Positions 4,123 to 61,111 of a stretch of DNA of 64,000 nt are shown here, piece by piece. The first letter of the stretch is position 1; every line of letters starts with the position of its first letter. A program made the position numbers and the translations under genes. The notes beneath the pieces are model-generated. The model was given only the letters and a program-made list of their open reading frames with translations, was not told where the DNA came from and searched no databases. Source of the stretch: an uncultured Bacteroidales bacterium (GTDB lineage: Bacteria > Bacteroidota > Bacteroidia > Bacteroidales > Paludibacteraceae); assembly GCA_902785605.1 (NCBI GenBank), contig CACZZL010000007.1:1-64000 (forward strand). The letters run 5' to 3'.

Positions 4123-4157
4123 TTAACGGTTAATGGTTAACGGTTAGTGGTTAATGT
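4123..4157. repeat. Heptamer tract, TTAACGG/TTAATGG family, 5 units
   Basis: Consecutive units TTAACGG, TTAATGG, TTAACGG, TTAGTGG, TTAATGT fill the gap between the nqr terminator and the HIT start codon. Confidence 0.75.
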
Positions 4158-4190
4158 TAAGGAACGCGCACACACGTGCGCGTTCCTTAA
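4157..4190 (-). terminator. Terminator of the nqr operon
   Basis: A perfect 15-bp stem (TTAAGGAACGCGCAC with its complement) and a 4-nt loop (ACAC), 3 nt after the nqrF stop. There is no long T-run, but the stem is the strongest simple hairpin in the window. Confidence 0.75.
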
Positions 4191-4193
4191 TTA

Positions 4194-5375
4194 TCAACCG
4201 CCGAAGTTATCGAAGCGGATGTCAGCGTCGTCTACGCCCAGCGAGTGGAGTAGGTCGAGGACGGTCTTGGCCATCATAGGAGGACCACAGAGGTAGTACT
4301 CGACATCTTCCGGAGCGTCATGCTGCTTGAGGTAAGTGTCGCCCATGACCGGTGCGATGAAACCTGCGGTATACTTGATACCCAGACCATCTGCCTTCGG
4401 ATCCGGACGGTCCAACGCGAGGTGGAAATGGAAGTTCGGGAACTCCTTCTCCAGCGCGAGGAAATCGTCGAGGAAGAAGACTTCGTCGATAGCACGTGCG
4501 CCGTAGAAATAGTGGCTGTCATAGACAGGACGGAACTCACCGTAAGGACCACTCATGCGTACCTTGTCGCCCGGTTTGAGCGAGAAGATATACGTGGAAG
4601 CGATGCCGCACGGTACATCCATGAACTCAGGTCCGTTCGGACATTGCTCTTTTGGTTTGAACGGCGGGGTAGCGATACGAACGGTCAGGGTGATGATATC
4701 GCCCTCGTCCGGGTAGTTCGCCATCGAGTACGCACGTACCGTTGCTTGGGTATTCTTCTGTTTGAGTTTGAACAAACCGAACTTCTCCCATGCCGGCAAG
4801 TAGAGGTCACCGATGAGCGATTTGTCGAAATCGCGGTTGTAGTCGATATCGTACTCCGGAATGATGATCTGTGCGTACGAACCCGGTTCGAAGTGCATGT
4901 GCTCGCCCGGAGGCAGCTGAACCTTGAACTCTTTGATGAACGTAGCCACGTTCTTGTTTGAGATCACTTCACACTCCCATTCCTTAACACCCAGAACAGC
5001 CTCATCGACCTTCATGGTGATGTCTTCTTTCACTTTCACCTGGCAACCCAAACGCCAACCCTCTTTCTGCTGCTTACGCGAGAAATGAACGGTTTCGGTC
5101 GGCAGAATCTCACCGCCGCCGCTGAGTACCTGGCACTTGCACTGGCCGCACGAACCCTTACCACCACAAGCGGAAGGCAGGTGAACACCTGCTTCGCCGA
5201 GTTGCGAGAGCAGCGAACCGCCGGCAGCTACGTCATAGACTTTGTCGCCGTTGATGGTGACTTTGACGTTACCCGACGAAACAAGGTAGCGCTTCGCAAT
5301 CAGCAAAACAGCTACGAGCAGGAGTATTACCACGAGGAATACTACAATGGCAATGATAATAGCTTGTATATTCAT
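4194..5375 (-). CDS. nqrF: Na+-translocating NADH:quinone reductase subunit F
   Basis: 393 residues. This is the entry subunit of Na+-NQR: it takes a hydride from NADH onto FAD and passes electrons to a [2Fe-2S] cluster. One N-terminal membrane helix (residues 5-27) is followed by a ferredoxin domain with cluster ligands C70, C76, C79 and C111. Next come an FAD domain with RAYS at 214-217 and an NADH domain with a late CGPPMM motif. It is the last gene of the operon, 18 nt after nqrE, preceded by a strong AGGAGG ribosome site. Confidence 0.97.
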
Positions 5376-5393
5376 AGTTTCAATCCTCCTTCA

Positions 5394-6020
5394 TTAAAAA
5401 CTCAAACCGCTGAAACACATGAACGCCATCGCCATCAGACCTACGGTGATGAAGGTGATGCCGAGTCCCTGCAGCGGCTTGGGAACGTCGTTATACTCCA
5501 TTTTTTCACGAATACCTGCGAGGCAGACGATTGCCATGAGCCATCCGATACCGGAACCGAACGCGTAGAAGAACGCGTCACCGAAACCGGTGATAGCTTT
5601 GGGATCTGTCTCCGGCAAGCCGATACGCTGCTGCATAAAGAGCGAACCACCCATGATAGCGCAGTTCACCGCGATCAGCGGCAGGAAGATACCGAGGCTC
5701 GCATAGAGCGACGGGCTGAACTTCTCCACGATCATCTCCACCAGTTGCACGATAGCGGCAATGACGGCGATGAACAGAATGAAACTCAGGTAACTCAGGT
5801 CGAGACCCTCCACGAGGGCGTTCGGACCGAGTACGTATTTCTGCAGCAGGTAGTTAACCGGTAATGTAACGATGAGCACGAACGTAACGGCTACACCGAG
5901 ACCTGCAGAGGTCTTCACATTCTTCGACACTGCCAGGTATGAACACATACCGAGGAAGTAAGCGAAGATCATGTTGTCCGAGAAAATCGAACGAACAAAT
6001 AAATTCAATGCGTTATCCAT
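5394..6020 (-). CDS. nqrE: Na+-NQR subunit E
   Basis: 208 residues, about six membrane helices (starting [20 protein letters not shown]). In Na+-NQR the NqrD and NqrE subunits form an inverted-topology pair in the inner membrane that takes part in electron transfer and Na+ movement. The start codon overlaps the nqrD stop (TAATG), suggesting coupled translation. Confidence 0.96.
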
Positions 6021-6649
6021 TACTTGCCCTCCTTATCGTTATAGGCCCTATGAGCCCAGATTACACAACCTACGAGAATCAACGCCATAGCCGGCATGAG
6101 CATCATACCGCAGTTCTCGTACCAACCGCCGTTAGCAGCGTACCAACTCTCCGGGATGATCTGGATACCGAGCAGTTGTCCTGCACCGAACAGCTCACGG
6201 ATGAGTGCTACGATGACGAGGATGATGGCATAGCCCAGACCGTTGCCCAGACCGTCAAGGAACGAATCCCACGGTTTGTTAGTCATCGCGAACGCTTCGA
6301 GACGACCCATGAGGATACAGTTGGTGATGATCAGACCGAGGTAAACGGACAGCTGCATCGCTACATCGTACGCAAAGGCTTTGAGCACCTCGCTCACGAG
6401 TGTTACCAGCGCCGCTACCACTACCAGTTGCACGATGATACGTACGCGCATCGGGATCGTGTTACGAATCAACGACACAATCACATTCGACATCGCGACG
6501 ATGATCGTCACGGCGATACCCATCACGAGGGCAGGTTTGAGCTGAACCGTTACGGCCAGAGCCGAACAGATACCCAGAATCTGCACAACGACCGGGTTAT
6601 TGGCGTTAAGAGGACCTAACAATGTGTCCTTAGTCTTCTGACTCAACAT
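6020..6649 (-). CDS. nqrD: Na+-NQR subunit D
   Basis: 209 residues, hydrophobic with about six membrane helices, partner of NqrE. The start chosen is ATG at 6649 ([14 protein letters not shown]), which carries a GGAGGAAG ribosome site, rather than the upstream in-frame codon at 6670. It overlaps the end of nqrC by 20 nt. Confidence 0.95.
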
Positions 6650-11584: not shown

Positions 11585-13005
11585 AGTTGTACGACGTTTT
11601 CTACATGTTGGGTATGCGGGAACATATCCACGGGTTGTATTTTGGTAACTTTGTATTTCTTATCGAGCAGCGCCAGATCACGTGCCTGGGTGGCCGGATT
11701 ACAGCTCACATAAACGATCCGTTTGGGGGCGGCGTTCAAGATCACATCCACCACATCTTCATCCATTCCGGCACGGGGCGGGTCGGTGATAATGACATCC
11801 GGACGGCCGTATTGAGCCACGAACGCATCGTTCAGCACTTTCTTCATGTCCCCTGCGAAGAAGAGGGTGTTCTCGATGTGGTTGATCTTCGAATTCACTT
11901 TTGCGTCCTCAATCGCCTCAGGTACGTACTCAATGCCGATCACCTGCCGCGCCTGCCGCGCCACAAAATTGGCAATTGTTCCGGTGCCGGTATACAAGTC
12001 ATAGACCAGTTCATTGCCGGTCAGTTCGGCAAAGTTCCGTGCCACTTTGTACAGTTCGTACGCTTGTTCGGTATTGGTCTGGTAGAACGATTTGGGACCG
12101 ACTTTGAACTGCAATCCCTCCATCTCCTCCATGATATGGTCCTGACCGAAATACACCTGTACGTCCAAGTCCCCGATGGTGTCGTTGAACTTGGTGTTTT
12201 CTACATAAAGCAACGATATGATCTCCGGGAACTGTGTGTGCAGGTACTCCAAAAGTCCTTTGGCATCTTCCCGTAACCCGTAACCCGTAACCTGTAACCC
12301 CTCTCCGAAACAGACGATGAGCATCAGTTCGCCTTTGTGGTTGTTGCGCAGGATCAGCGTACGCAGCAATCCCTCGTGCGTGTGTTCGTTATAGAACGTC
12401 ATACCGTGTGCACGCGCATACGCACGGACGGAGTTACGGATGCGGTTGTTAATCTCCGGCATCAGGTGGCATTCCTCTATATCCAGCACTTTGTCAAATG
12501 CATTCGGGATATGAAAGCCCAGACCGTAGGTGCTGTCCACATGGTCCAATCCTCCGGCCGCTTCGATCACTTCCCAGGGGAACCATTTGCGGTCCGAGCA
12601 GGTGAACTCCAACTTGTTGCGGTACTCGTAGATATGCTTAGAGCCCAAGATCGGACTGATCTCGGGCAGCTCGATCTTACCGATGCGGGTGAGGTTGTCC
12701 ACAATCTGCTGCTGCTTGTACTTGATCTGCTCTTCGTACGGCAGAATCTGCCATTTGCAACCGCCGCATACCCCGAAGTGTGGGCACCGTGCCTCACAAC
12801 GCACCGCACTCGGCTGCACCACGCGCAGCACTCTCGCCTCCATGAAACTGTGTTTCTTCTTCGTTATTTGCAGGTCCACAATATCACCCGGCACACAGTT
12901 CGGCACAAACGTGACGATATCGTTGATACGCACCAACGCTTTGCCTTCCGCTGCCACCCCCGTGATCGTTACATTTTCAATGACAGGTAGATTTTTCTTC
13001 GCCAT
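11572..13005 (-). CDS. rlmD: 23S rRNA (uracil-5-)-methyltransferase, RlmD/RumA family
   Basis: 477 residues. N-terminal TRAM domain (about 1-60); iron-sulfur motif C74-x5-C80-x2-C83 (PHFGVCGGCKW); SAM-binding LVYDLYTGTGTIANF; catalytic region DPPRAGMDEDVV and VSCNPA. It makes m5U in 23S rRNA. The start is set at ATG 13005, because the promoter at 13022-13052 lies inside the longer open frame. Residues around 235-244 (LQVTGYGL) are encoded by a GTAACCC-type heptamer tract and look like an insertion in the variable part of the domain. Confidence 0.9.
   Translation of the reverse strand: MAKKNLPVIENVTITGVAAEGKALVRINDIVTFVPNCVPGDIVDLQITKKKHSFMEARVLRVVQPSAVRCEARCPHFGVCGGCKWQILPYEEQIKYKQQQIVDNLTRIGKIELPEISPILGSKHIYEYRNKLEFTCSDRKWFPWEVIEAAGGLDHVDSTYGLGFHIPNAFDKVLDIEECHLMPEINNRIRNSVRAYARAHGMTFYNEHTHEGLLRTLILRNNHKGELMLIVCFGEGLQVTGYGLREDAKGLLEYLHTQFPEIISLLYVENTKFNDTIGDLDVQVYFGQDHIMEEMEGLQFKVGPKSFYQTNTEQAYELYKVARNFAELTGNELVYDLYTGTGTIANFVARQARQVIGIEYVPEAIEDAKVNSKINHIENTLFFAGDMKKVLNDAFVAQYGRPDVIITDPPRAGMDEDVVDVILNAAPKRIVYVSCNPATQARDLALLDKKYKVTKIQPVDMFPHTQHVENVVQLCLR
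12273..12300. repeat. Heptamer tract in rlmD, GTAACCC x4
   Basis: GTAACCC, GTAACCC, GTAACCT, GTAACCC; in frame inside rlmD. Confidence 0.85.
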
Positions 13006-18004: not shown

Positions 18005-18025
18005 TTAGCCGTTAGCCATTAGCCC
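18005..18025. repeat. Heptamer tract, TTAGCCN x3
   Basis: TTAGCCG, TTAGCCA, TTAGCCC. The last unit supplies the TAA stop of the minus-strand gene at 18019. Confidence 0.7.
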
Positions 18026-30300: not shown

Positions 30301-30328
30301 TTAGCCTTTAGCCTTTCACCATTCGCCT
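30301..30328. repeat. Heptamer tract, TTAGCCT/TTCGCCT, 4 units
   Basis: TTAGCCT, TTAGCCT, TTCACCA, TTCGCCT fills almost the whole 31-nt gap between the convergent stops of aroK and the 30329 gene. Confidence 0.8.
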
Positions 30329-36387: not shown

Positions 36388-36420
36388 ATAAAAATGCAAA
36401 AAGTGCTCTTTTTCTTAAAC

Positions 36421-36448
36421 TTTCGCCTTTCGCCCTTCGCCTTATGCC
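36421..36448. repeat. Heptamer tract, TTTCGCC, 4 units
   Basis: TTTCGCC, TTTCGCC, CTTCGCC, TTATGCC, directly after the der stop. Confidence 0.8.
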
Positions 36449-36449
36449 T

Positions 36450-37766: not shown

Positions 37767-37771
37767 AATTA

Positions 37772-37800
37772 TTTACGATTTAACGATTTACGATGTACGA
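37772..37800. repeat. Heptamer tract, TTTACGA, 4 units
   Basis: TTTACGA, TTTAACGA (one extra base), TTTACGA, TGTACGA, filling the der/FKBP gap. Confidence 0.75.
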
Positions 37801-37801
37801 T

Positions 37802-42974: not shown

Positions 42975-43730
42975 ATGTACAAGGCTATCTTTATTGACAT
43001 AGACGACACCTTACTCGACTACATTCCTTGTTGTCGGGAAGCGTTTGATGCGGCAATAGGGGAATTAAAAATTAAAAATGAAGAATTAAAAATTACCCAA
43101 AGCGAAGACGATCTATTCCGCTTGTTTTTTGAGATAAGCGGACGGTTGTTCTCGGAAGCCAAACGCGGCTTGCACACGGTGGCGGAGGTAATGGAACTAT
43201 ACCCGGCGGAGTTCATTGAGAAAAGCGGATTGGCGAACGAGCGGGCAGAGGAAATGACCGATGTTTTCAAGCACGCCTTCCGTGCTGCATGGGGCAATAC
43301 GCACACCTTGGTGCCCGGAGCACAAGAGGCATTGGAGGCTTTGCAACGCAAGGGATACCGTTTGTTTGCTGCCAGCAACAGTTTTGGTCATTTACAGCGC
43401 AGCCGTCTGCAGCACGCAGGGATCTTGCACTATTTCGAAGATACGTATATTTCCATGGATATCGGTTACGATAAACCGGATGTCCGGTTCTATGAAGAAG
43501 CATTGCGCCGATGCGGCTTGGCAGCGAACGAGGTGATCATGGTGGGAGATAGTATGACGACCGATATCATCGGGGCACAGCAAGCCGGCTTGGATGCCAT
43601 CTATTTCAATCGTCGCAATGAACCGTTAGCCTCTCACCTTTCGTCCTTAGCCGTTATTGGCTCTCTTGCGGAGTTGGAAGCGTGTGTAGAGGTGGAAGAG
43701 CAGCGGCGGAATTGTCGTGGCCATCAGTAA
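42975..43730 (+). CDS. HAD-superfamily hydrolase (YjjG/phosphatase-like)
   Basis: 251 residues from ATG 42975 (MYKAIFIDIDDTLLDY); an ATG 15 nt earlier gives MYKGTMYKAI, and the two arose in a TGTACAA-type duplication. Motif I DIDDT, motif II near AASNSFG, Lys in GYDKPDVRF, motif IV GDSMTTDI. Cytoplasmic phosphatase of unknown substrate. Residues IGELKIKNEELKITQ come from an ATTAAAA heptamer tract. The last 84 nt overlap the convergent MMPL gene. Confidence 0.85.
   Translation: MYKAIFIDIDDTLLDYIPCCREAFDAAIGELKIKNEELKITQSEDDLFRLFFEISGRLFSEAKRGLHTVAEVMELYPAEFIEKSGLANERAEEMTDVFKHAFRAAWGNTHTLVPGAQEALEALQRKGYRLFAASNSFGHLQRSRLQHAGILHYFEDTYISMDIGYDKPDVRFYEEALRRCGLAANEVIMVGDSMTTDIIGAQQAGLDAIYFNRRNEPLASHLSSLAVIGSLAELEACVEVEEQRRNCRGHQ
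43064..43091. repeat. Heptamer tract, ATTAAAA, 4 units
   Basis: ATTAAAA, ATTAAAA, ATGAAGA, ATTAAAA in frame in the HAD gene. Confidence 0.8.
43625..43659. repeat. Heptamer tract, GTTAGCC/TTTCGTC, 5 units
   Basis: GTTAGCC, TCTCACC, TTTCGTC, CTTAGCC, GTTATTG at the HAD 3' end, running into the MMPL stop. Confidence 0.65.
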
Positions 43731-47757: not shown

Positions 47758-50222
47758 AGCGCTTCTATTGTTTGTTGTGCGGTCATGACGACACCGCATA
47801 GGCCGTGTAAGAAAATATTCTGTCCCGACAGATAGAGCCCGGGCACGCGGGTACGCACCGAACCGACGGACTCGCTCAGACCGAACATCGCCCCTTCCGG
47901 ACTGAGAAAATCGTCCCGGAAGGTGAGGGAGGTCGAACTGAACACATCCTCTATGTGCTGCGAGATGCCGGGATAGATGGTCTCAATGAGCCGAATCACC
48001 TCTTGCTCCTTCTTTTTCTTGAACGCTTCGTAGGCGGCATAGTCCTTTTTGCGGTCGCTATGCCAGGGTGCTAACTCCTTGTAATTGAGCGGCATCACCG
48101 TTTCTATTGTGCGGGCGTAGGTCTGATGGCGTTCGGTGCACGGGGTCATTACCAATAATTGATACTCAGGCAGATAGTGTGTCATATCGTCGTAATGCAG
48201 TGCTTGCGAAGAGAGGCGGATATAGGTCTTGAATGATCCCTTCGTTTCTACTGTCTGTTCGATGCGCTTACGGGCAATGGTGCGGCACCAAGGTAAGTCG
48301 GTGAGTTGCAATAACTGTTTGGGATGCAGGGTGCTAATGACCGCATCAAACGACCACTGATCATTCACCGTGAACTTTTCACCCTTTGCCTTTAGCCCTT
48401 TCGCCCTTTCGCCCGTTATAATTCGTCCGCCGTGGCGGGTGATATAGCGCGCCAGATCGTTCGCTAAAGCTTGGCTGCCGCCTACGAACCGGAACACACC
48501 CTTATCGCTCTGTGCCCATTCTGCTTGCCCGATGAGGTCTGCCGGGGAGTGATCCAGCGTCGTGGGAACGACGTTCGCTTCGATGCCTAATGAGGCCAGT
48601 ACGCGTGTGACTGCACCGTCGGGTTCGAGTCCGGTCAGTATATGCATGCCGGTTGCCCAGGTCTCTCCGTTGCGTTCGTACGAGTATAAGCCGCCACCGA
48701 ATACAGGCAACTGCTCGAGGAGTGTCACGTTGTAACCGCGTTGTGCCAGCATCGCTCCGCAGAACAGACCGCTCACACCGGCTCCTATGATGCCGATTCG
48801 GGTCTTTGAGTTATGCAGCAGCGCATCGTAATGGTGCTCCAGCGATTTGGTGCGGGTCTTATAGGTCGTGCCCCAGGAACAGTCATCGGCAGGTATCAAT
48901 GGCAGCACACTCACGCGCACATCGGTCGGTTTGAGTGCGAACTGACGTTTGCCCATGTAATCCGTCATGCCTTCAATCAGCAACGGCTGAATAGGCAGAT
49001 GATACTGATCGGCATAGTAGAACGCTCCGCGGTGGAAGCGACCAATCTCACCGGTCGTGGTGCGGGTACCTTCGGGGAACACGAAGAGCGAGTAGCCTTC
49101 GTCCATGATGCGTTGAATACGCGCGTCGCGTTGCTCATCGCTGAACGAGGTCGGGATACAATCCAAGTACCGCGCGACAACTCCTAAGAACGGATTGCCC
49201 CACACATAACTCTTGACGACCATCACGATCTTATCGGACAGCGAGAGGCAGACAACAATATCAATGAACGACTGGTGGTTGGAGATGACTACCGCTTGTT
49301 GGTCTGTCACTTGACCTTGTACCTTTAGCCTCAGTCCGAGGATCCTACGCGTGAAATGCGCTGCCATGCGTTGTACGAAGCGGTGATAGCGGGCACGTGA
49401 AGCGGCATTGCGACCGTGAACGGCGAAGAAGAGCCAGGTGTAGGGATTGACGATGAGCAGCATCACCGTACCAAAATACCAGAAACTGAGCACCGTACGC
49501 CAGTACATGTTGATGTAACCGAACAAGATGGCACCGAGGCACAGGAAACAGTTCAGAATCGAGATACGCGTGAAATCACGTGCAGGCACAAAATGGCTCA
49601 CCCGTTCTTCTTGCGGCGGGTAATAAACGCGTACAGGCACGGGAACGAGTGGTACGTTGTGCCACGCCGCAAACACCAGCAGTTCCAGTTCGGCCTCGTA
49701 GCGGCTTGTGAGCAGGCCCAGACCGTACAGACGGTGTAAGGGGTACAGCCGAAAACCCGTTTGGGTATCCGGCAGGTTGATGGTGGTCTGCAAGCGGAAC
49801 CAGAAGTTCGAGAAACGATTGGCGAACTTACTCTTGCCGGACATGTTCTTGTCCGTGAACTGCCGGCTGCCGATGATCAACGCATCGGGATGTACGTCAT
49901 GTGCCCGGAGCAGCATCGGTATATCTTCCGGAAAATGCTGTCCGTCCGCATCGATGGTCACCGCAAAATCAAATCCCATCTCCAGCGCCTTGCGAAATCC
50001 AGCTCTCAGCGCCGCTCCTTTGCCTTTGTTGGCCGGGTAGGAGACGAGTGTGATGGGAAAATCGAGGGTAGCCAGCAACGCTACGGTGTTGTCCGTACAA
50101 CCATCCGCCACCACAATGATATCGCGCATCTGCTGATGCACGCGACGAACCACATCGAGAATCGTACCGGCGTTATTGTACGTCGGTATCAGGGCACATA
50201 TATGTCGCTGTGAAGGATGCAC
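47739..50222 (-). CDS. Three-domain fusion: GT2 glycosyltransferase / PlsC-like acyltransferase / FAD oxidoreductase
   Basis: 827 residues from GTG 50222, the only start before the GT2 strand ICALIPTYNNAG. GT2 domain about 5-235 (ADGCTDNT; TIDADGQHFPEDIP near residue 89); membrane stretch near 240-275; acyltransferase domain about 290-465 with NHQSFID near 314 and FPEGTR near 384. From about 474 comes a dinucleotide-binding domain (RIGIIGAGVSGLFCG) of the CrtI/phytoene-desaturase type, 350 residues. These activities are usually separate genes in such clusters. Expected role: add a sugar or acyl anchor and oxidise the product. The start overlaps the dehydratase by 50 nt. Confidence 0.88.
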   Translation of the reverse strand: MHPSQRHICALIPTYNNAGTILDVVRRVHQQMRDIIVVADGCTDNTVALLATLDFPITLVSYPANKGKGAALRAGFRKALEMGFDFAVTIDADGQHFPEDIPMLLRAHDVHPDALIIGSRQFTDKNMSGKSKFANRFSNFWFRLQTTINLPDTQTGFRLYPLHRLYGLGLLTSRYEAELELLVFAAWHNVPLVPVPVRVYYPPQEERVSHFVPARDFTRISILNCFLCLGAILFGYINMYWRTVLSFWYFGTVMLLIVNPYTWLFFAVHGRNAASRARYHRFVQRMAAHFTRRILGLRLKVQGQVTDQQAVVISNHQSFIDIVVCLSLSDKIVMVVKSYVWGNPFLGVVARYLDCIPTSFSDEQRDARIQRIMDEGYSLFVFPEGTRTTTGEIGRFHRGAFYYADQYHLPIQPLLIEGMTDYMGKRQFALKPTDVRVSVLPLIPADDCSWGTTYKTRTKSLEHHYDALLHNSKTRIGIIGAGVSGLFCGAMLAQRGYNVTLLEQLPVFGGGLYSYERNGETWATGMHILTGLEPDGAVTRVLASLGIEANVVPTTLDHSPADLIGQAEWAQSDKGVFRFVGGSQALANDLARYITRHGGRIITGERAKGLKAKGEKFTVNDQWSFDAVISTLHPKQLLQLTDLPWCRTIARKRIEQTVETKGSFKTYIRLSSQALHYDDMTHYLPEYQLLVMTPCTERHQTYARTIETVMPLNYKELAPWHSDRKKDYAAYEAFKKKKEQEVIRLIETIYPGISQHIEDVFSSTSLTFRDDFLSPEGAMFGLSESVGSVRTRVPGLYLSGQNIFLHGLCGVVMTAQQTIEALCEEYE
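48377..48413. repeat. Heptamer tract, TTTAGCC/CTTTCGCC, 5 units
   Basis: TTTCACC, CTTTGCC, TTTAGCC, then two 8-base CTTTCGCC, in the oxidoreductase part (peptide GERAKGLKAKGEKF). Confidence 0.75.
49311..49331. repeat. Heptamer tract, TTGACCT/TTAGCCT, 3 units
   Basis: TTGACCT, TGTACCT, TTAGCCT just before the acyltransferase domain (LRLKVQGQVTD). Confidence 0.55.
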
Positions 50223-50544
50223 AGGGTATGTTTAACGTTGAAAGATTAAAGTTGAAAGAAGAGGAAGCCTTTTCTTGTATTGCGAACGTCAGTTCCTGAT
50301 CGGGTGTGACTGGCTGGCGGAACTTGAGGTTGCGTAGCTGCGTGAACGAACCCTTGCGACCGGTCAGACGGGCCGTCAGTTCTTCGGCGATCTGCACCAG
50401 ACAAGCACCCGGCACAATCGGGTGACCGGGAAAATGGCCGGTGAAGATAGGGTGCGAAGCATCGAAGCGAATGCGGAACATGCTTTCGCCATTAGCCTCT
50501 TGCCTTTCGTCCAAGATATGATAGAACCTATTTTGTAAGTACAT
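50173..50544 (-). CDS. FabZ-like hotdog dehydratase
   Basis: 123 residues from ATG 50544 (MYLQNRFYHILDERQ). Catalytic motif HFPGHPIVPGA with H37. Removes water from 3-hydroxyacyl-ACP to make the polyene double bonds. Two heptamer tracts lie inside (peptides ERQEANGES and SFNFNLSTLN), one in the C-terminal tail. It overlaps lolA-like by 17 nt and the fusion gene by 50 nt. Confidence 0.85.
   Translation of the reverse strand: MYLQNRFYHILDERQEANGESMFRIRFDASHPIFTGHFPGHPIVPGACLVQIAEELTARLTGRKGSFTQLRNLKFRQPVTPDQELTFAIQEKASSSFNFNLSTLNIPCASFTATYMCPDTDVQ
50230..50257. repeat. Heptamer tract, GTTGAAA, 4 units
   Basis: GTTTAAC, GTTGAAA, GATTAAA, GTTGAAA. Confidence 0.8.
50484..50511. repeat. Heptamer tract, TTTCGCC/ATTAGCC, 4 units
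   Basis: TTTCGCC, ATTAGCC, TCTTGCC, TTTCGTC near the dehydratase start. Confidence 0.75.
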
Positions 50545-51335: not shown

Positions 51336-53050
51336 ACCTTATATATATACGCGTGCGCAATAGGTGTCATTTGGTCTCCCACGTGTGCCAACACCTGATC
51401 CCACGATTCCACTTGTTCATCGAACTGCAGCACCAGCGCGCTGTGGATCTGTCCCAGCGCCATCTGCGTTCGGATATCCATCATCGCCGCAGAGGGGGAC
51501 AAGGGGTGCTGTGCATAGGTGGCGTTGTAACCGTGGTTGCCGGTTAGGATCGCAATGAGCGAAGCGACCGTGTTATGCGTCGATTGGATGAATGGGGTCG
51601 GTTTGAGTTGTTGCTCATCGTTGTCCAGCATATCTTGCAGGAAACGCATCGACTGTGCCATGCATCCCCATTCGGTCTCGCAGAGAATCGCATCCGGGGT
51701 GATACCCGTCTGCTGCAGTACCATGCGTGCGGCTGCTACGATGCGCCGCATCTGCGGGGTCATGCGCCGTGCTTCCGCTCCGCTGACCATTTGGCTGACC
51801 GCACTGTCGTCCAACTCTTCAATCGCCGCAATTGGCGTGAGCGAGGAGGGGAGGGCGGTTTCGCTCAAGTCTGTCCCTGCCAGGCTCAGTACCAACGAGG
51901 ACTCGTTGCCGCCAAAACCGAAGGCGTTGCACAACACATGGTGCAGGGGCTTATGCTCGGTGTGCAGAACAGGTTGCACTAATCCTTCCGCAGTCTCGGA
52001 CCAATGCAGGTTCGCGGGAATGAACCCGTGCTGCATCGCCAACACGCAGATTGCGGCTTCCAATCCTCCGCTGGCGGAGGTGGTGTGCCCGGTGAACGCT
52101 TTGGTGCTGCTGACAGCCGGCATCTGCGATCCGAACAAACGGCGCAATGCGGCTGATTCGCTTAGGTCATTATTGGGTGTTGCGGTGCCATGTGCGTTGA
52201 TGTAATCGATGTCGCCGGGTGTCAGTCCTGCCATCTCCAACGCGCCCTTCATCGCCAAATAAGCACCCTCTCCGTTCTCCGAAGAGGCGGTCTGGTGATA
52301 GGCATCGCAGGTGTTCGCGTAGCCGCTAATATACCCGAGAATGACCGCGCCGCGTATCTTCGCATCCTCTTCCCGCTCCAAAACCAAGTATCCTGCTCCT
52401 TCGCCAAGGTTCAGTCCGTTGCGCTTAGCATCGAACGGACGACAGGGTTCGTGGGAGAGAATCATCAGTGTATTGAAGCCGTTGAGGTGGAATTTGCTCA
52501 AACTCTCTGCACCGCCTACCACCGCGGCTTTAGCTTGTCCGGTGCGTAGCATGTTAGCGCCTAACAGGACGGCGTTCAGTGCCGACGAACAGGCAGTCGA
52601 TGGAGTGGCCGTAAAGGCGAAAGGCGAGAGGTGAGAGGCAATCGTGCGCGTGGTGCTATCTGCTTCATGCAGGCGGATATGGTCCAAGGCTTGGCCTTGG
52701 GCATAGTGGTGCAGGTGCTGCTCCGTGAGATCCATACCACCTACAGTGGTGCCGCTGATGAATGCGCAGCCGTCTGTGTTCTGTAATCCTGCTTGCTGCA
52801 TCGCTTCCCGGGCTGCTAACAGTCCGAGTAAAGCGGTGCGGGGCATGGGTTCGGATAGGTCGATACCGGCCATCTGTTTGAGTTCGGCATCGCTAAACGG
52901 CACTTCACCGACCGGCAGTTCCTTGTGCACACTGCCGAGCACACGCATAGACCCGATGCCGGACTGTTCGTTCAGCAACGACTGCAGCGTCTCGGCGCAG
53001 TTACGGCCGATCGCGCTGATAGCTCCTATGCCCGTGATGGCAATTCTCAT
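51332..53050 (-). CDS. Ketosynthase fused to a second KS-like domain
   Basis: 572 residues. Residues 1-395 are a complete FabF-type ketosynthase: C154 (STACSSA), H287 (NAHGTA), H322 (FTGHTT). Residues about 405-572 match the 'Ketoacyl-synt_2' type found as separate small KS or chain-length proteins in aryl-polyene clusters (RRMTPQMRRIVAAARMVL; FIQSTHNTVASLIAIL). They carry no catalytic Cys. The fused part may act as chain-length partner. Its ATG overlaps the ACP stop. A heptamer tract gives ASHLSPFAFTA just before the active Cys. Confidence 0.87.
   Translation of the reverse strand: MRIAITGIGAISAIGRNCAETLQSLLNEQSGIGSMRVLGSVHKELPVGEVPFSDAELKQMAGIDLSEPMPRTALLGLLAAREAMQQAGLQNTDGCAFISGTTVGGMDLTEQHLHHYAQGQALDHIRLHEADSTTRTIASHLSPFAFTATPSTACSSALNAVLLGANMLRTGQAKAAVVGGAESLSKFHLNGFNTLMILSHEPCRPFDAKRNGLNLGEGAGYLVLEREEDAKIRGAVILGYISGYANTCDAYHQTASSENGEGAYLAMKGALEMAGLTPGDIDYINAHGTATPNNDLSESAALRRLFGSQMPAVSSTKAFTGHTTSASGGLEAAICVLAMQHGFIPANLHWSETAEGLVQPVLHTEHKPLHHVLCNAFGFGGNESSLVLSLAGTDLSETALPSSLTPIAAIEELDDSAVSQMVSGAEARRMTPQMRRIVAAARMVLQQTGITPDAILCETEWGCMAQSMRFLQDMLDNDEQQLKPTPFIQSTHNTVASLIAILTGNHGYNATYAQHPLSPSAAMMDIRTQMALGQIHSALVLQFDEQVESWDQVLAHVGDQMTPIAHAYIYKV
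52615..52635. repeat. Heptamer tract, AGGCGAA/AGGTGAG, 3 units
   Basis: AGGCGAA, AGGCGAG, AGGTGAG, then AGGCAAT. Confidence 0.7.
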
Positions 53051-53304: not shown

Positions 53305-53825
53305 ATTTGTATTTTTGCATAAAATTCATCTTTTGCGCTGCACTCGCACCAGCCGGCGAGAATAGTTGAGAGTTTAGAGTTGAGAGTTGAGAGAATGATC
53401 GGCTCCAGTTGTTCCGGATGGTCCAGAATATAAAACGAGGTCTCGCCTTGTATCTGATGCCGAATCGCAATCTCGCCCGTGACAATGTTCGGCAGCGTAT
53501 AAACGAACAGAGCCGGGCTGGGGTAGTAATTACCATCTGAGATGGTGGCAAGGTAATCCGTGTCGTTTTTGATGCTCGCACTGCGATTGGCCAAGATGAT
53601 TGCTGAAATCTGATTGCTGATAGCTGACTGCTTCAACAATATCTCTGCAGCGATCCAACCGAGGCGGCTGAGGGTGTCCATCTTAAAGAATTTCGGATAG
53701 TCACCGGCATAGCGACGGTAGAGTTCGACCAGCATCTTATCGCCCGTCTCCTGCACCGTGATCGCCTGTCCGTTCAGCATCACCGAACGCGGTGTAATCT
53801 CTATGTAGCTTTCAGTTTTCAGCAT
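53292..53825 (-). CDS. Small KS-like protein of aryl-polyene/flexirubin clusters
   Basis: 177 residues. The segment YPKFFKMDTLSRLGWIAAEI and the late YTLPNIVTGEIAIRHQIQGE are typical of the short '3-oxoacyl-ACP synthase' proteins next to the ACP in Bacteroidetes pigment clusters. It has the thiolase-like half fold but no active-site Cys, so it is probably structural or a chain-length factor. Two heptamer tracts encode KQSAISNQISA and LSTLNSKLSTI. Confidence 0.75.
   Translation of the reverse strand: MLKTESYIEITPRSVMLNGQAITVQETGDKMLVELYRRYAGDYPKFFKMDTLSRLGWIAAEILLKQSAISNQISAIILANRSASIKNDTDYLATISDGNYYPSPALFVYTLPNIVTGEIAIRHQIQGETSFYILDHPEQLEPIILSTLNSKLSTILAGWCECSAKDEFYAKIQIWNN
53364..53391. repeat. 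Heptamer tract, AGTTGAG x4
   Basis: AGTTGAG, AGTTTAG, AGTTGAG, AGTTGAG, in frame. Confidence 0.85.
53602..53629. repeat. Heptamer tract, GCTGATA/GCTGAAA, 4 units
   Basis: GCTGAAA, TCTGATT, GCTGATA, GCTGACT, in frame. Confidence 0.8.
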
Positions 53826-53834
53826 TCAGTTTTC
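53807..53834. repeat. Heptamer tract, AGTTTTC, 4 units
   Basis: AGCTTTC, AGTTTTC, AGCATTC, AGTTTTC spans the overlap where the 53819 gene stops and the 53825 gene starts. Confidence 0.8.
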
Positions 53835-54835
53835 AGCCTTATCGCTGCATTAACGCCTCCGAATCCGGAGAGCATCTTAATGAGTCTTGACTCCTGACTC
53901 TTGACTCCTGACTCCTTTATCTGCATCGCGCAGAGAATAGTCTCCAACACGCCGGCTGCACCCATGGTGTGACCGAAATAGGGTTTGAGCATGCTCTTGG
54001 GCACGTCTTGCAGGCCGGCCCGTTCGATGGCCACCTGTTCCATGGCGTCGTTGTACTGCGTAGCTGTACCGTGTACGCCAATGAGACGGATCTGTTCGGG
54101 GGTGCACCCTTCCAGCACGTCCATCAGACAGCGGTATGCCCCTTCACCGGTCCGGCTGGGAGCCGAGATATGGTTCGCATCGTTGTGGATGCTGCCCGCT
54201 TCCAGCGTCCAATAAGGCTGAACACGGACTGCTGAAGGCTGACTGCTATAAATGATCGTAGCCGCTGCTTCACCTAAGTTGAGCCCTTTGCGGTCGGGTT
54301 GGAACGGGGTACAGGGTTCCGGCGACAGGGCCTTGAACGATTGAAATCCGCTCACAATGAACCGCGTTTGCAGATCGCATCCGACCACCACGGCATGCTT
54401 GTATAGTCCTGCTTCGAGCAGGCGCATGGCGGTTATCTGGGCACATACACCGGAAGTGCAGGCATTGCTCACCACAATCGGCGGGTTGGGGTTGCCGAAA
54501 TGCGCTGCAATCGCTTGTGCCGGACGCAGCAGTTCCAAGTGATCCCCTTTGGTTGTAGAGAGAACGAAGACAGTGTCCTTTATCCATTGTCCATTGTCCT
54601 TTGTACATTGTACATTGTCACTTTGTACATTCTCCATCGCTTCCTCCACGCTCCGGATGCACAGTGGTACGAACTCCTGCGGGGTATCGAACAGCGAGGC
54701 GCAGAACGGTTCCACGTCTGCGAAGCGGTCCGAATAAATCTTCAGTCCGCTGCGTCCTGCTTGTACCGCGTCGTAGTTCGCTTGCGAACCGATGCCGAGC
54801 GGTGAGAGGATACTATGTCCGATACAATACACCAT
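53819..54835 (-). CDS. Ketosynthase of the pigment cluster
   Basis: 338 residues, shorter than FabF (about 410). C126 (SNACTSGV), H255 (GVHGTATQ) and H289 (FGHTMGAAG) are all present. Three heptamer tracts lie inside, including the longest in the window, which adds the polar stretch ENVQSDNVQCTKDNGQWIKD in the N-terminal half. The other two give SSQPSAVRVQP and IKESGVKSQESRLIK. Likely starts or extends the aryl-polyene chain. Confidence 0.87.
   Translation of the reverse strand: MVYCIGHSILSPLGIGSQANYDAVQAGRSGLKIYSDRFADVEPFCASLFDTPQEFVPLCIRSVEEAMENVQSDNVQCTKDNGQWIKDTVFVLSTTKGDHLELLRPAQAIAAHFGNPNPPIVVSNACTSGVCAQITAMRLLEAGLYKHAVVVGCDLQTRFIVSGFQSFKALSPEPCTPFQPDRKGLNLGEAAATIIYSSQPSAVRVQPYWTLEAGSIHNDANHISAPSRTGEGAYRCLMDVLEGCTPEQIRLIGVHGTATQYNDAMEQVAIERAGLQDVPKSMLKPYFGHTMGAAGVLETILCAMQIKESGVKSQESRLIKMLSGFGGVNAAIRLKTEC
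53882..53916. repeat. Heptamer tract, GACTCCT, 5 units
   Basis: GAGTCTT, GACTCCT, GACTCTT, GACTCCT, GACTCCT, in frame near the ketosynthase C-terminus. Confidence 0.88.
54217..54244. repeat. Heptamer tract, GCTGAAG, 4 units
   Basis: GCTGAAC, ACGGACT, GCTGAAG, GCTGACT, in frame. Confidence 0.65.
54574..54637. repeat. Longest heptamer tract, TGTCCAT/TGTACAT, 9 units
   Basis: TGTCCTT, TATCCAT, TGTCCAT, TGTCCTT, TGTACAT, TGTACAT, TGTCACT, an 8-base TTGTACAT, TCTCCAT, all in frame inside the ketosynthase. Confidence 0.9.
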
Positions 54836-56345: not shown

Positions 56346-57461
56346 TCAGCGTTTGCGGCAAACGATGATCGAGTGTCCTCCGTTTCCGATGCGGTCATGA
56401 ATGGTCTCGATCTCGAGTCCCGCCTCGTGAATGAGCCGGGTCATGTCATCGGTGTTGTACATCTTACTGTTGCCGTTAGCGAGTGCCGTGAAATAGAGGC
56501 TGGTCATGGTCAGGCTCATCGCTGCCGGTATATAGTCCTGCCGATCCCACAGGGTCTCCATGATGAAGATACGGTTGTCGGCATCGAGTATGGCTGCGGC
56601 GCGGCGCAGGATGGATACGATCTGCTCTTCGCTAAAGCAGTCGAGGAACTGCGACATCCATATTACGTCGTAGCGTTGGTCGGTCGGGAAGGTGCTGTGC
56701 TCGTCCAGCAGGTTCATTCCCACACCGCGAATACGCTCCGCACCGGCTTGTCCTGCCGTTGCTTGCTGCATCAGACCGATCTGTTGCGGCAGGTCGCAGA
56801 TGGTCACTTCCATCCGGTCGCTGTAGGTTACGCACCGCATGGCGAATCGTCCTGTGTTTCCGCCTACGTCCAAGAGCTGTAAGCTTTCGCCATTCGCCTT
56901 TTGCCTTTCGCCTATCAACTCCAGCGCTTCATCAAACGAATGATCGGAGTAGTAGTGGTCAAAACCGAACCAGCTCTTTTGCACCTCGGGCGGCAGGCTG
57001 CTCAGTCCTTCGTAGATGGTGGGCCAATCGCCAAAATGCTTGAGTCCCGCCGGACGGCCTTGTTCGAGTGCATGGTCGAGCACGAACCAGCCTTCGTAAT
57101 TGACATCGTGGTTGAAATCAATGTCCGCACGGATCATTGCGTCGCGCAGTAAGAACCAACCGGTCTTGGCGAGGCGGTACTTGTCCGTCTGCGGGTCAAT
57201 GAGCACGATGTGCGTGGTCAGCGAAGCTTCCAACAGACACTTGGCTGCGTACTCGCTCAGACCTGTGGCCTGTGCGATCTCGTGCTGCGTCAGTCCGTCG
57301 CGGTGCTCGTTGAGCAGTTCTAAGATGCCGTAGCGAATCATGAGTCGGCTGACTTGAAAGATGACCGGCCCCCATGAATAGAGGTGCGCCATCTCCTGCG
57401 CCTGCTGCGCGTTGTACGGCTCCTTGCTGAACGCTTGTTTTAGTTTATCGAATAAATGCAT
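56346..57461 (-). CDS. SAM-dependent O-methyltransferase, winged-helix type
   Basis: 371 residues. N-terminal winged-helix dimerisation domain (ILELLNEHRDGLTQHEIAQA); SAM motif LLDVGGNTGRFA near residue 195; late region DDMTRLIHEAGLEIE. Fits the family 2 O-methyltransferases in aryl-polyene clusters, which methylate the aryl head. A TTTCGCC tract inserts IGERQKANGES just before the SAM motif. Confidence 0.87.
   Translation of the reverse strand: MHLFDKLKQAFSKEPYNAQQAQEMAHLYSWGPVIFQVSRLMIRYGILELLNEHRDGLTQHEIAQATGLSEYAAKCLLEASLTTHIVLIDPQTDKYRLAKTGWFLLRDAMIRADIDFNHDVNYEGWFVLDHALEQGRPAGLKHFGDWPTIYEGLSSLPPEVQKSWFGFDHYYSDHSFDEALELIGERQKANGESLQLLDVGGNTGRFAMRCVTYSDRMEVTICDLPQQIGLMQQATAGQAGAERIRGVGMNLLDEHSTFPTDQRYDVIWMSQFLDCFSEEQIVSILRRAAAILDADNRIFIMETLWDRQDYIPAAMSLTMTSLYFTALANGNSKMYNTDDMTRLIHEAGLEIETIHDRIGNGGHSIIVCRKR
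56886..56913. repeat. Heptamer tract, TTTCGCC, 4 units
   Basis: TTTCGCC, ATTCGCC, TTTTGCC, TTTCGCC, in frame. Confidence 0.85.
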
Positions 57462-57462
57462 A

Positions 57463-57490
57463 AATCTTCAATATCCAATTTTCAATCTCC
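57463..57490. repeat. Heptamer tract, AATCTTC/AATCTCC, 4 units
   Basis: AATCTTC, AATATCC, AATTTTC, AATCTCC between ketosynthase stop and methyltransferase start; it overlaps the ketosynthase stop codon. Confidence 0.75.
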
Positions 57491-58705
57491 AATTGTGCGC
57501 AGCACAATGGCGCTGTTCGTTCCTCCGAAACCGAAGCTGTTACTCAGTACGGTCTTCAGTTCGGTGTCCACGGTTGTGGTGGCGAGGCGCAGGGTCTCGG
57601 CAGCGGGATCGACGTGTTCGAGGTTGATGTTCGGTGCCACGAATCCCTGCTGCATCATGAGAATCGAATAGACCGCTTCGCTCGCGCCGGCCATCCAACA
57701 CTCATGTCCGGTCATGGACTTGGTGCTGCTGATCCAGGTGCGTTTGCCGCCGAACAGACGGGTCAGTGCGATGGCTTCTTCTTCATCTCCCTGCTTGGTG
57801 GAGGTGGCATGTGCGTTGACGTAGTCGATGTCTTCGGGTTGCATACCGGCATCGGCCAAAGCACGTTGCATAGCGATGAACGAACCCTCGCTGCTCGGTT
57901 GGGATATACCGCCTCCGTTGCCGGAGAAGCCGTATCCGCACACTTCGGCCAGAATGGTCGCACCACGGGCAATGGCATGGTCATACTCCTCCATCACCAG
58001 AGCAGCTGCACCGCCACTCGGTACAAGACCGTCGCGGTCGGTGTCGAACGGACGACTGGCTCGGGTAGGGTCGTTGACGCGGCAGGAGAACGTGCCCAGC
58101 GCGTCGAACGCTGCCATGGCATAGGGGTTCACCTCCTGCGCACCGCCTACGAGCACCGTGTCTTGCAGGCCCTGACGAATGAACATCGCACCCAGACCAA
58201 TGGCATGGCTGCCGCTGGCACAGGCTGCGCTGACCGAGAAATTGATGCCGCGCAGGTGGAAGATGGTGCTGAGGTTCATGTTCACCGTGGAGTTCATCGA
58301 TTGGAAGATGAGTCCGCTGCCGAGCAACGCGGTGTCGTGTTTCTCGAGCATGGTCTCGTGCATCTCGACGGTCGGCTTGGCGGTGCTGTCGTTGCCGAAC
58401 AGAATGCCCACTTCGTGATCAAGCAAGTATTGCTCGTCTATCGCGGCCTGTTCGAACGCTTCGCGGGCTGCCATGTAGGCGTATTGTGCCTCTTGCGACA
58501 TACCTGTGCGTAAGCGACGGTGCAATAGCGCTTTCAGGTCCGGTGTCTCCACCATGCCTGTCAACGGACTGCGGAAACCGTATTCCTTGCGCGCTTCGTC
58601 ATAGCCGATGCCGCTCTTGCCGGCCCGCAACGACGCACTCACTTCCTCTTGGTTCCGGCCGATGCACGACCAGATACCCATGCCTGTGATCACTACTCGT
58701 CTCAT
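57482..58705 (-). CDS. FabF-like ketosynthase of the pigment cluster
   Basis: 407 residues, a complete KAS II fold with C162 (AACASGS), H299 (NAHATST) and H334 (MTGHECWMAG). Most conserved of the three ketosynthases and probably the main chain-extending enzyme. The ATG overlaps the ketoreductase stop. Confidence 0.92.
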   Translation of the reverse strand: MRRVVITGMGIWSCIGRNQEEVSASLRAGKSGIGYDEARKEYGFRSPLTGMVETPDLKALLHRRLRTGMSQEAQYAYMAAREAFEQAAIDEQYLLDHEVGILFGNDSTAKPTVEMHETMLEKHDTALLGSGLIFQSMNSTVNMNLSTIFHLRGINFSVSAACASGSHAIGLGAMFIRQGLQDTVLVGGAQEVNPYAMAAFDALGTFSCRVNDPTRASRPFDTDRDGLVPSGGAAALVMEEYDHAIARGATILAEVCGYGFSGNGGGISQPSSEGSFIAMQRALADAGMQPEDIDYVNAHATSTKQGDEEEAIALTRLFGGKRTWISSTKSMTGHECWMAGASEAVYSILMMQQGFVAPNINLEHVDPAAETLRLATTTVDTELKTVLSNSFGFGGTNSAIVLRTIGD

Positions 58706-59427: not shown

Positions 59428-60947
59428 ATTTGTCGTAAGTATTTCTCTATGTTAGCCAAGTCCTCGTAGAACGGGGTGTCGTCCACGATGGTGGGTGTGA
59501 TGGCGCGGATCGCGTCGTACTGTGCCTTGGTGGCGGGTGCGAGTTGGTCGGCGATGTGCAGACAATCGACCGCTTGCGCCATAGCCAGGTACAGGATGGA
59601 CAGCACCTGGTAGCAGTTGTCAATCACCTGCCGGCACAGTTCGGCGCTGTTCGTACCCATGGACACGATGTCCTGGTTGTCGTTGTTGTTCGGTATCGAG
59701 TGCACATAGTTCGGCATGGCGAGCGTCTGACACTCGGCGGTGGTGCTGGTGGCGGTGAACTGACAGGCTTGGATGCCGTAGTTCAGTCCCAGCGTACCCA
59801 GGTTGAGGAAAGGCGGCAGGATGCCGTTGATGCGATCGTGGCACAGGTAATTGAGTTGTCGCTCGCTCACCATCGCCAGGCGCACCATCGCGATCTTCAT
59901 CTTATCTGCCTCCAGCGATATATAATCGCCGTGGAAGTTACCGCCATGATAGACGTTCTGCGTCTCGGGGTCCACGATGGGGTTGTCACTGGCTGCATTC
60001 AGTTCCTCGTCGATGACCATACGGCTGTAGGCCAGCGTGTCGGCTATCGGGCCGAGGATCTGCGGCGCGCAGCGCAGCGAATAGTACGCCTGCACCTTGT
60101 CCTTGAACACCCCGTCCTTTTCGCCATTGGCCATTAGCCTTTCGCCATTGTACAAAACGTTCTCCCGTTTCTGCAAGCGTTTGGAGCCTTGGCTCATCGC
60201 CCGCATCTGTTGGGCGATCGCGATCTGTCCTCCGTGTCGGCGTGCCTCGTTGAGCGGGGCAGCCATGAGGTCGTCGTAACTGCCGGCAATCTCGTTCATC
60301 CATACGGCCGCTATAGTGGCGAGGTGGAGCAGGCGCTCGGCATCCAACTGATTGACCGCACTGATGCCGGTCATGATGCTGGTGCCGTTGGTGCAACTCA
60401 GTCCTTCACGGATATGAATGCTGACGGGCTTGAGTCCACACTCATCCATTACGTCTTTCGCCTTTCGCCATTCGCCCTTATAGTGCACTTTGCCTTCACC
60501 GATGAGGCACAGCGCCATGTGGGCCAGTTGTACCAAGTCACCGCTGGCACCCACACTGCCGTGTTTGGGAATGTACGGGCATATACCGCGGTTGATGAAC
60601 TCGGTGAGCAGCGCCACCAGTTCGGGGTGCACACCGCTCTTGCATTGTGCGAACGAGCCTACGCGTGCCAACATACCCGCGCGTACAAAAAAATCGTCCA
60701 AGGGTTCACCCATACCGGTGGCATGGGAGCGAATGATGTTATATTGCAATTCACGCAGGTGCGCATCTTCCACGCGCCATTGTGCCATCGGACCAAAGCC
60801 GGTGTTGATGCCGTAGATCACCTTGTCACTGGAGAAGCGGGACAGAAAATCAAAACAATCGGCTATGCCTTGCAGCGTAGCCTTGTCCCACACCAATTGA
60901 CCATCTCTGTACAAGATGTCACGAACTGAATCTACTGTTATTTTCAT
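59424..60947 (-). CDS. Aromatic amino-acid ammonia-lyase, tyrosine type
   Basis: 507 residues. The MIO-forming A134-S135-G136 is in GSVGASGDLVQLAH; VIYGINTGFGPMAQ and HSIPNNNDNQDIVSMGTNS are both intact. From memory, the sequence is close throughout to the Flavobacterium johnsoniae tyrosine ammonia-lyase, including YGINTGFGPMAQ, Q-Y-N-x-I-R-S-H and YHGGNFHGDYISLE. So tyrosine to 4-coumarate is the likely reaction; histidine cannot be excluded from sequence alone. The segment GERLMANGEKDG, from a heptamer tract, is about six residues longer than the same loop in that enzyme. First gene of the operon. Confidence 0.9.
   Translation of the reverse strand: MKITVDSVRDILYRDGQLVWDKATLQGIADCFDFLSRFSSDKVIYGINTGFGPMAQWRVEDAHLRELQYNIIRSHATGMGEPLDDFFVRAGMLARVGSFAQCKSGVHPELVALLTEFINRGICPYIPKHGSVGASGDLVQLAHMALCLIGEGKVHYKGEWRKAKDVMDECGLKPVSIHIREGLSCTNGTSIMTGISAVNQLDAERLLHLATIAAVWMNEIAGSYDDLMAAPLNEARRHGGQIAIAQQMRAMSQGSKRLQKRENVLYNGERLMANGEKDGVFKDKVQAYYSLRCAPQILGPIADTLAYSRMVIDEELNAASDNPIVDPETQNVYHGGNFHGDYISLEADKMKIAMVRLAMVSERQLNYLCHDRINGILPPFLNLGTLGLNYGIQACQFTATSTTAECQTLAMPNYVHSIPNNNDNQDIVSMGTNSAELCRQVIDNCYQVLSILYLAMAQAVDCLHIADQLAPATKAQYDAIRAITPTIVDDTPFYEDLANIEKYLRQI
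60119..60146. repeat. Heptamer tract, TTTCGCC/ATTAGCC, 4 units
   Basis: TTTCGCC, ATTGGCC, ATTAGCC, TTTCGCC, in frame in the ammonia-lyase. Confidence 0.88.
60456..60476. repeat. Heptamer tract, TTTCGCC x3
   Basis: TTTCGCC, TTTCGCC, ATTCGCC encodes YKGEWRKAK, where the family has a similar YKGER of the same length. Confidence 0.75.
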
Positions 60948-60991
60948 TAATGGTTGGTTACCTTATTTTTTCAAAAAATCAAAATCGGGCG

Positions 60992-61022
60992 CAAAGGTAC
61001 AACAATTTTTTGACATGTGCAA
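60992..61022 (-). promoter_or_regulatory. Promoter of the aryl-polyene operon
   Basis: Minus strand TTG (61022-61020), 20 nt, TACCTTTG (60999-60992). The only canonical promoter seen between 60947 and the end of the operon at 43647. Confidence 0.85.
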
Positions 61023-61042
61023 ATTATTTTCTATAAAAATAG

Positions 61043-61072
61043 AAAAAAGCACCGCCGAAGCGATGCTTTTTT
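61043..61072 (-). terminator. Terminator of the PfkB gene
   Basis: AAAAAAGCACCGC-CGAA-GCGATGCTTTTTT, one C/A mismatch, T-run on both sides. Confidence 0.8.
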
Positions 61073-61075
61073 TAC

Positions 61076-61111
61076 TTTAGCCAATAACCATTAGCCATTA
61101 GCCTTTCGACC
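61076..61111. repeat. Heptamer tract, ATTAGCC, 5 units
   Basis: TTTAGCC, AATAACC, ATTAGCC, ATTAGCC and an 8-base TTTCGACC, between the PfkB stop and its terminator. Confidence 0.8.

Follow-up and report, generated by a model that had tools for sequence, protein, structure and literature searches.

Tandem repeats with a unit of seven bases form a known class in bacteria, and the STRR sequences of cyanobacteria are heptameric repeats of this kind. In the parts of the literature on which we draw, heptanucleotides are described as an over-represented or the most abundant class of long simple repeats (PMC4679880, PMC4692102), a 2007 survey is cited as having found them the most abundant class in most genomes (PMC4679880), and a proposal is relayed that seven nucleotides is the length of DNA in contact with the polymerase (PMC4679880, PMC4692102). 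Direct repeats of TAACTGA occur in Beggiatoaceae, in Cyanobacteria and in five Bacteroidetes, in many cases shortly before a start codon, and other heptamers have been noted in some Bacteroidetes (PMC4679880), while GGGNATC repeats of Xanthomonas and Nostoc have been studied as G-quadruplex formers (PMC4692102). Short repeats also enter genes: Rickettsia palindromic elements are dispersed palindromic repeats of ~150 bp found in frame in unrelated genes (PMC10969869), and the fast-evolving Borg tandem repeats lie in gaps and in frame inside genes, with in-gene units divisible by three and virtually unique to one locus (PMC9879509). Here we describe arrays of seven-base words (heptads) in a 64,000-nucleotide stretch, the window, from an uncultured Bacteroidales bacterium of the Paludibacteraceae (assembly GCA_902785605.1, contig CACZZL010000007.1, positions 1 to 64,000), in the rest of its genome and in its relatives. 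What is new is that these arrays seem to spread by copying in addition to slippage: we favour, with moderate confidence, a reading in which they are born and resized by local 7-base slippage together with the copying of sentences of ~30 bases, and are kept where insertions are tolerated.

As far as the cited descriptions extend, the arrays are like heptanucleotide simple sequence repeats in that period 7 is favoured and slippage has been proposed, and unlike them in their many imperfect words, in lying within genes for 36 of the 96 tracts of this genome, in the presence of dispersed irregular sentences and in contents that differ between orthologous places. Heptameric direct repeats are common to these arrays and to TAACTGA, but here we count 40 word classes among the 96 tracts (464 kb), and the TAACTGA class is absent from those 40 and from the 60 listed of the 101 classes in relatives. 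GGGNATC and STRR repeats resemble these arrays in being heptameric, heterogeneous in unit and intergenic, whereas the words of this genome are mostly A/T-rich or mixed and GGGNATC was studied as a G-quadruplex former. A dispersed sentence that we call F2 is inserted in frame in unrelated genes, as are the Rickettsia elements; unlike them, F2 and a second sentence, F1, are direct repeats of ~30 bp without long inverted arms. The arrays share gaps and in-frame gene positions with the Borg repeats, but their unit is not divisible by three and their words are common to several loci. Set beside repetitive extragenic palindromic (REP) and miniature inverted-repeat transposable (MITE) micro-elements, F1, F2 and the other elements seen here have short inverted arms only, and this genome has no Y1_Tnp match. 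The initial annotation of the window had known of no described set with many consensus units in Bacteroidetes; many units under one dominant period are supported here for Bacteroidales, but heptamer repeats were already on record for Bacteroidetes, with TAACTGA in five genomes (PMC4679880). Searches of the open-licence literature listed no title or abstract opening on heptad words within proteins of Bacteroidales or on heptad sentences dispersed over a genome.

Tracts were scored by lag-based self-match, with lag 7 compared to lags 4-6 and 8-13. In the window, lag 7 gave 15, 12 and 7 tracts at scores of at least 10, 12 and 14, where the other lags gave 0-3, 0-2 and 0-2 and six dinucleotide shuffles of the window gave lag-7 means of 0.33, 0 and 0. 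In 400 kb on 17 other contigs of the same genome there were 84 lag-7 tracts, against 0, 0, 8, 7, 8, 2, 10, 5 and 0 at lags 4, 5, 6, 8, 9, 10, 11, 12 and 13. Relatives were sampled as 80 PorU-centred loci (1.634 Mb; the best 80 of 132 confirmed; N-containing tracts excluded), the nearest named ones being rumen and gut genomes of Paludibacteraceae or Bacteroidales. In these loci lag 7 gave 223 tracts, with at least one in 67 of the 80, and the same nine other lags gave 2, 2, 5, 44, 39, 11, 72, 13 and 5. In window, genome and relatives, period-7 tandem repeats thus exceed neighbouring periods, as in heptanucleotide simple sequence repeats, and the shuffles and neighbouring periods together rule out chance or base composition as the source of the tracts.

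The initial annotation had given the period as almost always seven, and the dominance of this period is borne out both genome-wide (84 tracts against 0-10 in the 400 kb outside the window) and relative to shuffled sequence (15 tracts against a mean of 0.33). Its figure of at least 33 tracts in the window held only in part: the tracts are real, but at a Tandem Repeats Finder score of at least 30 there are 25 separate arrays of period 7, 14 or 21, and 33 requires a looser threshold. Heptad repeats are present at all eight of its coordinates checked, most weakly at 50484. As it had described, the repeats are imperfect, with no run of three exact TTTCGCC units anywhere in the genome, and the rare 8-base slips are real, the position of the slip being fixed in at least two dispersed sequences.

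Period 7 was also followed in 149 Bacteroidales genomes with a scan for five TAA at fixed spacing, in which a single array yields several overlapping matches. Spacing by 7 was matched in 109 genomes (52 matches in this genome, 728 in G129) and spacing by 6 in 55 (0 in this genome), with G107 and G206 among a few genomes that favour period 6; the reversed control is unclean (121 and 90 in this genome) because AAT words are also heptads. TAA-every-7 was absent from G101, the only other genus of Paludibacteraceae in the sample, and no tracts were seen in ~123 kb from five other Bacteroidales families, a comparison in which the counts for G004 are meaningless because two of its three contigs are all N. 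With matches in 109 of 149 genomes, the phenomenon is patchy and not confined to Paludibacteraceae; a restriction to that family was dropped, since TAA-every-7 is common in many families.

The words are drawn from a small shared lexicon. Their Simpson index in relatives is 0.0147, compared with 0.0014 for random noncoding 7-mers, and 75 of the 96 own tracts have a word class that is also present in relatives, where 13.4 would be expected. Identical words also cluster locally: 36 pairs with one word fall within a stretch, against a mean of 12.2 and a maximum of 32 in 1000 permutations.

Whole sentences recur as well. F1, from the window spacer at 37771-37804, and F2 were searched in 61 genomes of the same genus, F1 at up to 3 mismatches, alongside reordered and reversed controls. 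F1 has 12 near-copies in this genome and 91 matches in 25 of the 61 genomes; with its 8-base slip moved to the next unit, 12 matches remained in 7 genomes, five of them at the coordinates of F1 matches. F2 has 24 near-copies in this genome and 118 matches in 23 of the 61, and its reordered version has none in the 61. Reversed F1 and F2 gave no match in the four sentence searches. Two further repeated sequences with a 7-8-7-7 skeleton were recognized by eye only. Also by eye, most of the F1 copies viewed precede an ATG by a few bases and have one orientation, and the flanks of F1 and F2 are not shared, save for a few bases ahead of F2 and for a C-terminal motif common to four F2 copies. F2 copies are mostly in genes and in sense orientation, one being a DXS segment and one lying in the ketosynthase-like gene of the window. 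At 20 of 26 own sites (up to 4 mismatches), the frame that reads VQSDNVQCTK stays open on either side for at least 24 codons, whereas the other two sense frames are open at 4 and 1; F2 is in frame in genes that are unrelated as judged by eye. Of 152 own tracts, 20 match another tract of this genome exactly over at least 28 nt and 3 match one of the relatives' 414 tracts in this way; a 34-nt exact copy is present on two contigs.

The initial annotation had suggested one shared 7-base mechanism, and some 7-base stepping is indeed seen: between L047 and L049 there are tandem-like indels of 7, 14, 14, 21 and 21 bases. As a full account this is not supported, since irregular arrays that are nearly identical at unlinked sites call for copying or for strong selection beyond a fixed copying step. 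We regard it as unlikely that the arrays reflect local replication slippage alone, with a favoured step of 7 nt set by the DNA length that contacts the polymerase and with shared words due to base composition and selection against stops. Such slippage, which in the descriptions cited above is the published proposal for heptanucleotide repeats in general, would fit the dominance of period 7, the unit-sized indels of L047 and L049, arrays whose register matches the stop codon of the gene itself and the considerable sharing that survives shuffling of unit order. It does not fit irregular 7-8-7-7 sentences that recur at many sites and always slip at one and the same unit (91 and 118 matches against 12 and 0 reordered) or the 34-nt exact copy, and one step of 7 nt in coding DNA would cause a frameshift. 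The strong case for copying is that of the irregular sentences F1 and F2.

Contents differ at orthologous places. Upstream of PorU, the small FAA-hydrolase-like gene varies in a single segment, which in the 69 rows compared holds, depending on the species, GGACAAT, GGCGAAG, AGGTGAT, TCAGCCR, ACAAAGT, TGGAGAT or other heptads, and in further species 8-base arrays, other short repeats or no repeat. A PorU segment of near-constant length contains TCAGCCR heptads in one small group, most clearly in L047, L049, L053 and L103. The content of the spacer adjoining Der differs even within species pairs ~95% identical (L050/L052, L053/L103 and L077/L087). DXS was assigned by TIGR00204 (694.6 bits), with matches also to solved DXS structures, and was found in 59 of the 61 same-genus genomes, some matches being flagged with in-frame stops but none in the segments shown. 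Among 30 DXS loci retrieved, of which the nearest 20 relatives are 83-87% identical, segment 2 (between RYPRG and GKG) by our own reading holds heptads in eight (our genome, L176, L181, L184, L185, L197, L199 and L200) and short recurrent elements of other kinds in about thirteen; segment 1, for which 27 loci were read, likewise holds heptads or other short elements. The variable protein segments that hold arrays are probably surface loops.

Other features of these places may be recorded here. The Der spacers of L060, L063, L083, L092 and L113 are 113-137 bases long and partly common in sequence, several with matching ends GTACTCT...AGAGTAC by eye. A near-identical 122-base Der spacer is found in L087 and L103, and their closest relatives, L077 and L053, carry different spacers. 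The DXS match breaks near residue 552 in G043, G026 and G062, which suggests an insertion in a third variable segment.

A bolder interpretation, which we can offer only tentatively, is a cassette system in which short dispersed repeats, heptad sentences among them, are continually copied into and lost from permissive spots. The DXS, FAA-hydrolase-like and PorU segments and the gene spacers would be refilled with interchangeable words within one genus, and the heptad would be a copying format with its own 7-8-7-7 grammar, not a mere product of slippage. It is very doubtful that the sentences originate from a mobile element, carried along by a transposon-like system that would be responsible as well for spreading the other short repeats of these segments and spacers. 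Heptads and other short repeats do occupy the same places (the FAA-like segment, the Der spacer and DXS), and a ~70-nt element is common to the DXS segment of L191 and the FAA-like segment of another species (L097). The inverted arms, however, are short, the longest being 3 bases in F1 and a self-complementary TGTACA word in F2, and this genome has no match to a Y1 transposase or RVT_1. In nine other short elements checked the arms reach only 5-7 bases; we therefore call these short repeat elements and rejected the label 'palindromic'.

Position relative to genes was determined with a home-made, trained and unvalidated gene finder (86% coding), which replaced a first caller giving 93% coding. 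By its calls, 44 of the 96 own tracts are noncoding, 36 coding and 16 straddling, with a higher density in noncoding DNA, and the relatives' 223 tracts divide into 135, 61 and 27. Noncoding tracts lie mostly in short gaps between co-directional genes, close to the upstream stop and often starting at the stop codon; of the noncoding tracts in such gaps, 20 of 36 in this genome and 58 of 106 in relatives are within 10 nt of that stop. Coding tracts are spread all along genes, yielding peptides such as GLQVTGYGLR, DKGQWTMDN and QLPITNHQSP, and 1 of 36 in this genome ends in the gene's stop codon. Unlike the 7-base arrays, 11-base arrays in relatives are noncoding in 71 of 72 cases and in divergent gaps in 37 of the 65 placed. 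These 11-base tandem arrays were noticed across L041-L120 (for example L096:4036-4132 and L104:3572-3640), often in divergent promoter gaps.

Some of these placements might suggest that the arrays are functional, as sites for RNA- or DNA-binding proteins or as repeated stops in three frames that act as translation barriers or gene spacers. Of the gene-end arrays, 28 of 47 in this genome and 50 of 106 in relatives repeat a stop every 7 nt in register (offset 0) with that of the gene itself, with 3-7 and 3-18 at each other offset, but this register is weak as proof of function, and was rejected as such, because it is partly built into the tract definition. In the Der spacer, next to an upstream C-terminus that looks conserved, 9 of 16 heptad arrays are by eye in register with the stop while the rest of their letters differ. 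Sense-only stops exceed antisense-only stops (12 against 6 in this genome, 28 against 14 in relatives), most F1 copies viewed stand close upstream of an ATG in one orientation, and the sense strand is purine-rich in relatives (70 against 17), but only weakly so in this genome (19 against 13). Sister species nevertheless carry different words at the same place, as in the Der spacer, and many arrays are inside enzyme genes; we consider function the least probable of the explanations weighed.

In the reading that combines slippage with copying, arrays would form and change size partly via local 7-base slippage, and ready-made sentences of ~30 bases would be copied in from other loci by a templated process, for example template switching. 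Retention would occur only where insertion does little harm, namely in stop-to-start gaps and in variable protein segments with an open frame. Our guess as to the step, suggested by the noncoding tracts of relatives (135 at lag 7, 32 at lag 8 and 3 at lag 6), is that seven is about the shortest unit that re-pairs stably, chance duplicates being rarer with each added base.

Several observations weigh against this combined account. Over 18 chosen pairs of relatives, partly overlapping in members, 7-base indels form no peak (8 of 335 indels up to 45 nt), and among the 14 indels of at least 5 nt that resemble tandem duplications, 7 are multiples of 7, 5 of these from one pair. Some arrays have letters in common with their flank and could have been seeded locally. 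The permutations behind the clustering of identical words leave local base composition uncontrolled. Seven shuffles of unit order in 118 tract cores gave 4-12 matches of at least 28 nt where 11 were observed (at least 32 nt: 0-7, with 9 observed); because so much sharing is retained, regular arrays alone are no proof of copying, and exact sharing between them is weakened as an argument. The matches to F1 and F2 are not independent events, because inherited copies at orthologous sites are included, and these are the only two sentences compared with reordered controls. In four F2 copies (L159, L164, L165 and L170) a common C-terminal motif is visible by eye, and these copies may stem from duplication of gene ends. 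As for the copying machinery, RVT_1 and Y1 transposase domains have no match in this genome, which is 83.5% complete, or in the copy-rich G029, G042, G051 and G054. A reverse transcriptase or Y1 transposase was accordingly set aside as the copier here, and template switching is something that we only infer; Y1_Tnp matches do occur in 22 of the 61 genomes of the genus sample.

Within the window, the arrays and sentences are located as follows.

4123..4154: TTAAYGG array, spacer before the start of HIT-domain gene 3684-4118(-)
12270..12300, minus strand: CCCGTAA array inside RNA-methyltransferase-like gene 11572-13044(-); peptide GLQVTGYGLR
18005..18024: TTAGCCR array between genes 16830-17966(+) and 18019-18411(-)
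30301..30331: TTAGCCT array between a shikimate-kinase-like gene ending at 30297 and gene 30329-30715(-)
32416..32454: CTTTCAA array in the PorU-PorV spacer, where several other species have different 7-, 8- or 9-base arrays
35994..36020, minus strand: ATTGTCC array in the variable segment of FAA-hydrolase-like gene 35823-36359(-)
36420..36451: TTTCGCC array, spacer between 35823-36359(-) and 36450-37766(-)
37771..37804: sentence F1 (7-8-7-7), covering the spacer between gene 37802-38404(-), from the stop TAA of which it extends, and Der 36450-37766(-), up to 4 nt short of the Der ATG
43062..43095: AATTAAA array downstream of tRNA-Pro (42854-42929)
44398..44519, minus strand: two TTTCGCC-type arrays (44398-44427 and 44474-44519) in MMPL-family gene 43647-45674(-)
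45172..45187, minus strand: short CTGAAAG array in the same MMPL-family gene, 43647-45674(-)
48377..48414, minus strand: TTTCGCCC array, period 8 by Tandem Repeats Finder, in glycosyltransferase/acyltransferase gene 47739-50222(-)
50232..50259: GTTGAAA-type array adjoining the start of 47739-50222(-)
52613..52639, minus strand: AAAGGCG array inside ketosynthase gene 51332-53050(-)
53364..53393, minus strand: AGTTGAG array inside gene 53292-53825(-)
53593..53632, minus strand: TGATTGC-type array inside gene 53292-53825(-)
53807..53837: TTTCAGT-type array at the junction of genes 53292-53825(-) and 53819-54835(-)
53881..53916, minus strand: GACTCCT array near the C-terminus of ketosynthase-like gene 53819-54835(-)
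54574..54637, minus strand: ATTGTCC/TGTACAT array in 53819-54835(-); 54598-54627 is sentence F2 (VQSDNVQCTK)
56884..56913, minus strand: TTTCGCC array inside methyltransferase-like gene 56346-57461(-)
57463..57494: AATCTCC array, spacer before the start of 56346-57461(-)
60119..60150, minus strand: TTTCGCC/ATTAGCC array inside aromatic amino acid lyase gene 59424-60947(-)
60455..60476, minus strand: TTTCGCC array inside the same lyase gene, 59424-60947(-)
61077..61115: ATTAGCC array, spacer between 59424-60947(-) and 61116-62081(-)

Ketosynthases, the methyltransferase-like gene and the aromatic amino acid lyase stand side by side at 43647-60947, a set that we take to resemble an aryl-polyene/flexirubin-type cluster. 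The Bacteroidales small signal recognition particle (SRP) RNA is at 10050-10157. A promoter-like motif, TTGCACA..TACCTTTGCA, resembling the Bacteroidetes -33/-7 promoter, is frequent and dispersed, occurring in the window at 10001-10043, 60991-61047, 62042-62081 and 63212-63289 and at many other loci of this genome. A coding-like repeat is present at window 18041-18203 and at L002:1-493, L008:455-1106, L012:1-284, L013:1-412 and L016:1-390; several copies are at contig starts, the one in L002 ends in ...EHPQG, and this is perhaps a gene family that breaks assemblies.

The genus, of which dozens of species have been sequenced, provides a natural series of repeated refilling, with different words, of one enzyme segment or one gene spacer. 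Two questions therefore become testable in it: why period 7 dominates repeats in many bacteria, and whether short repeats are able to spread through coding DNA without obvious marks of a transposase and to supply new sequence to working proteins.

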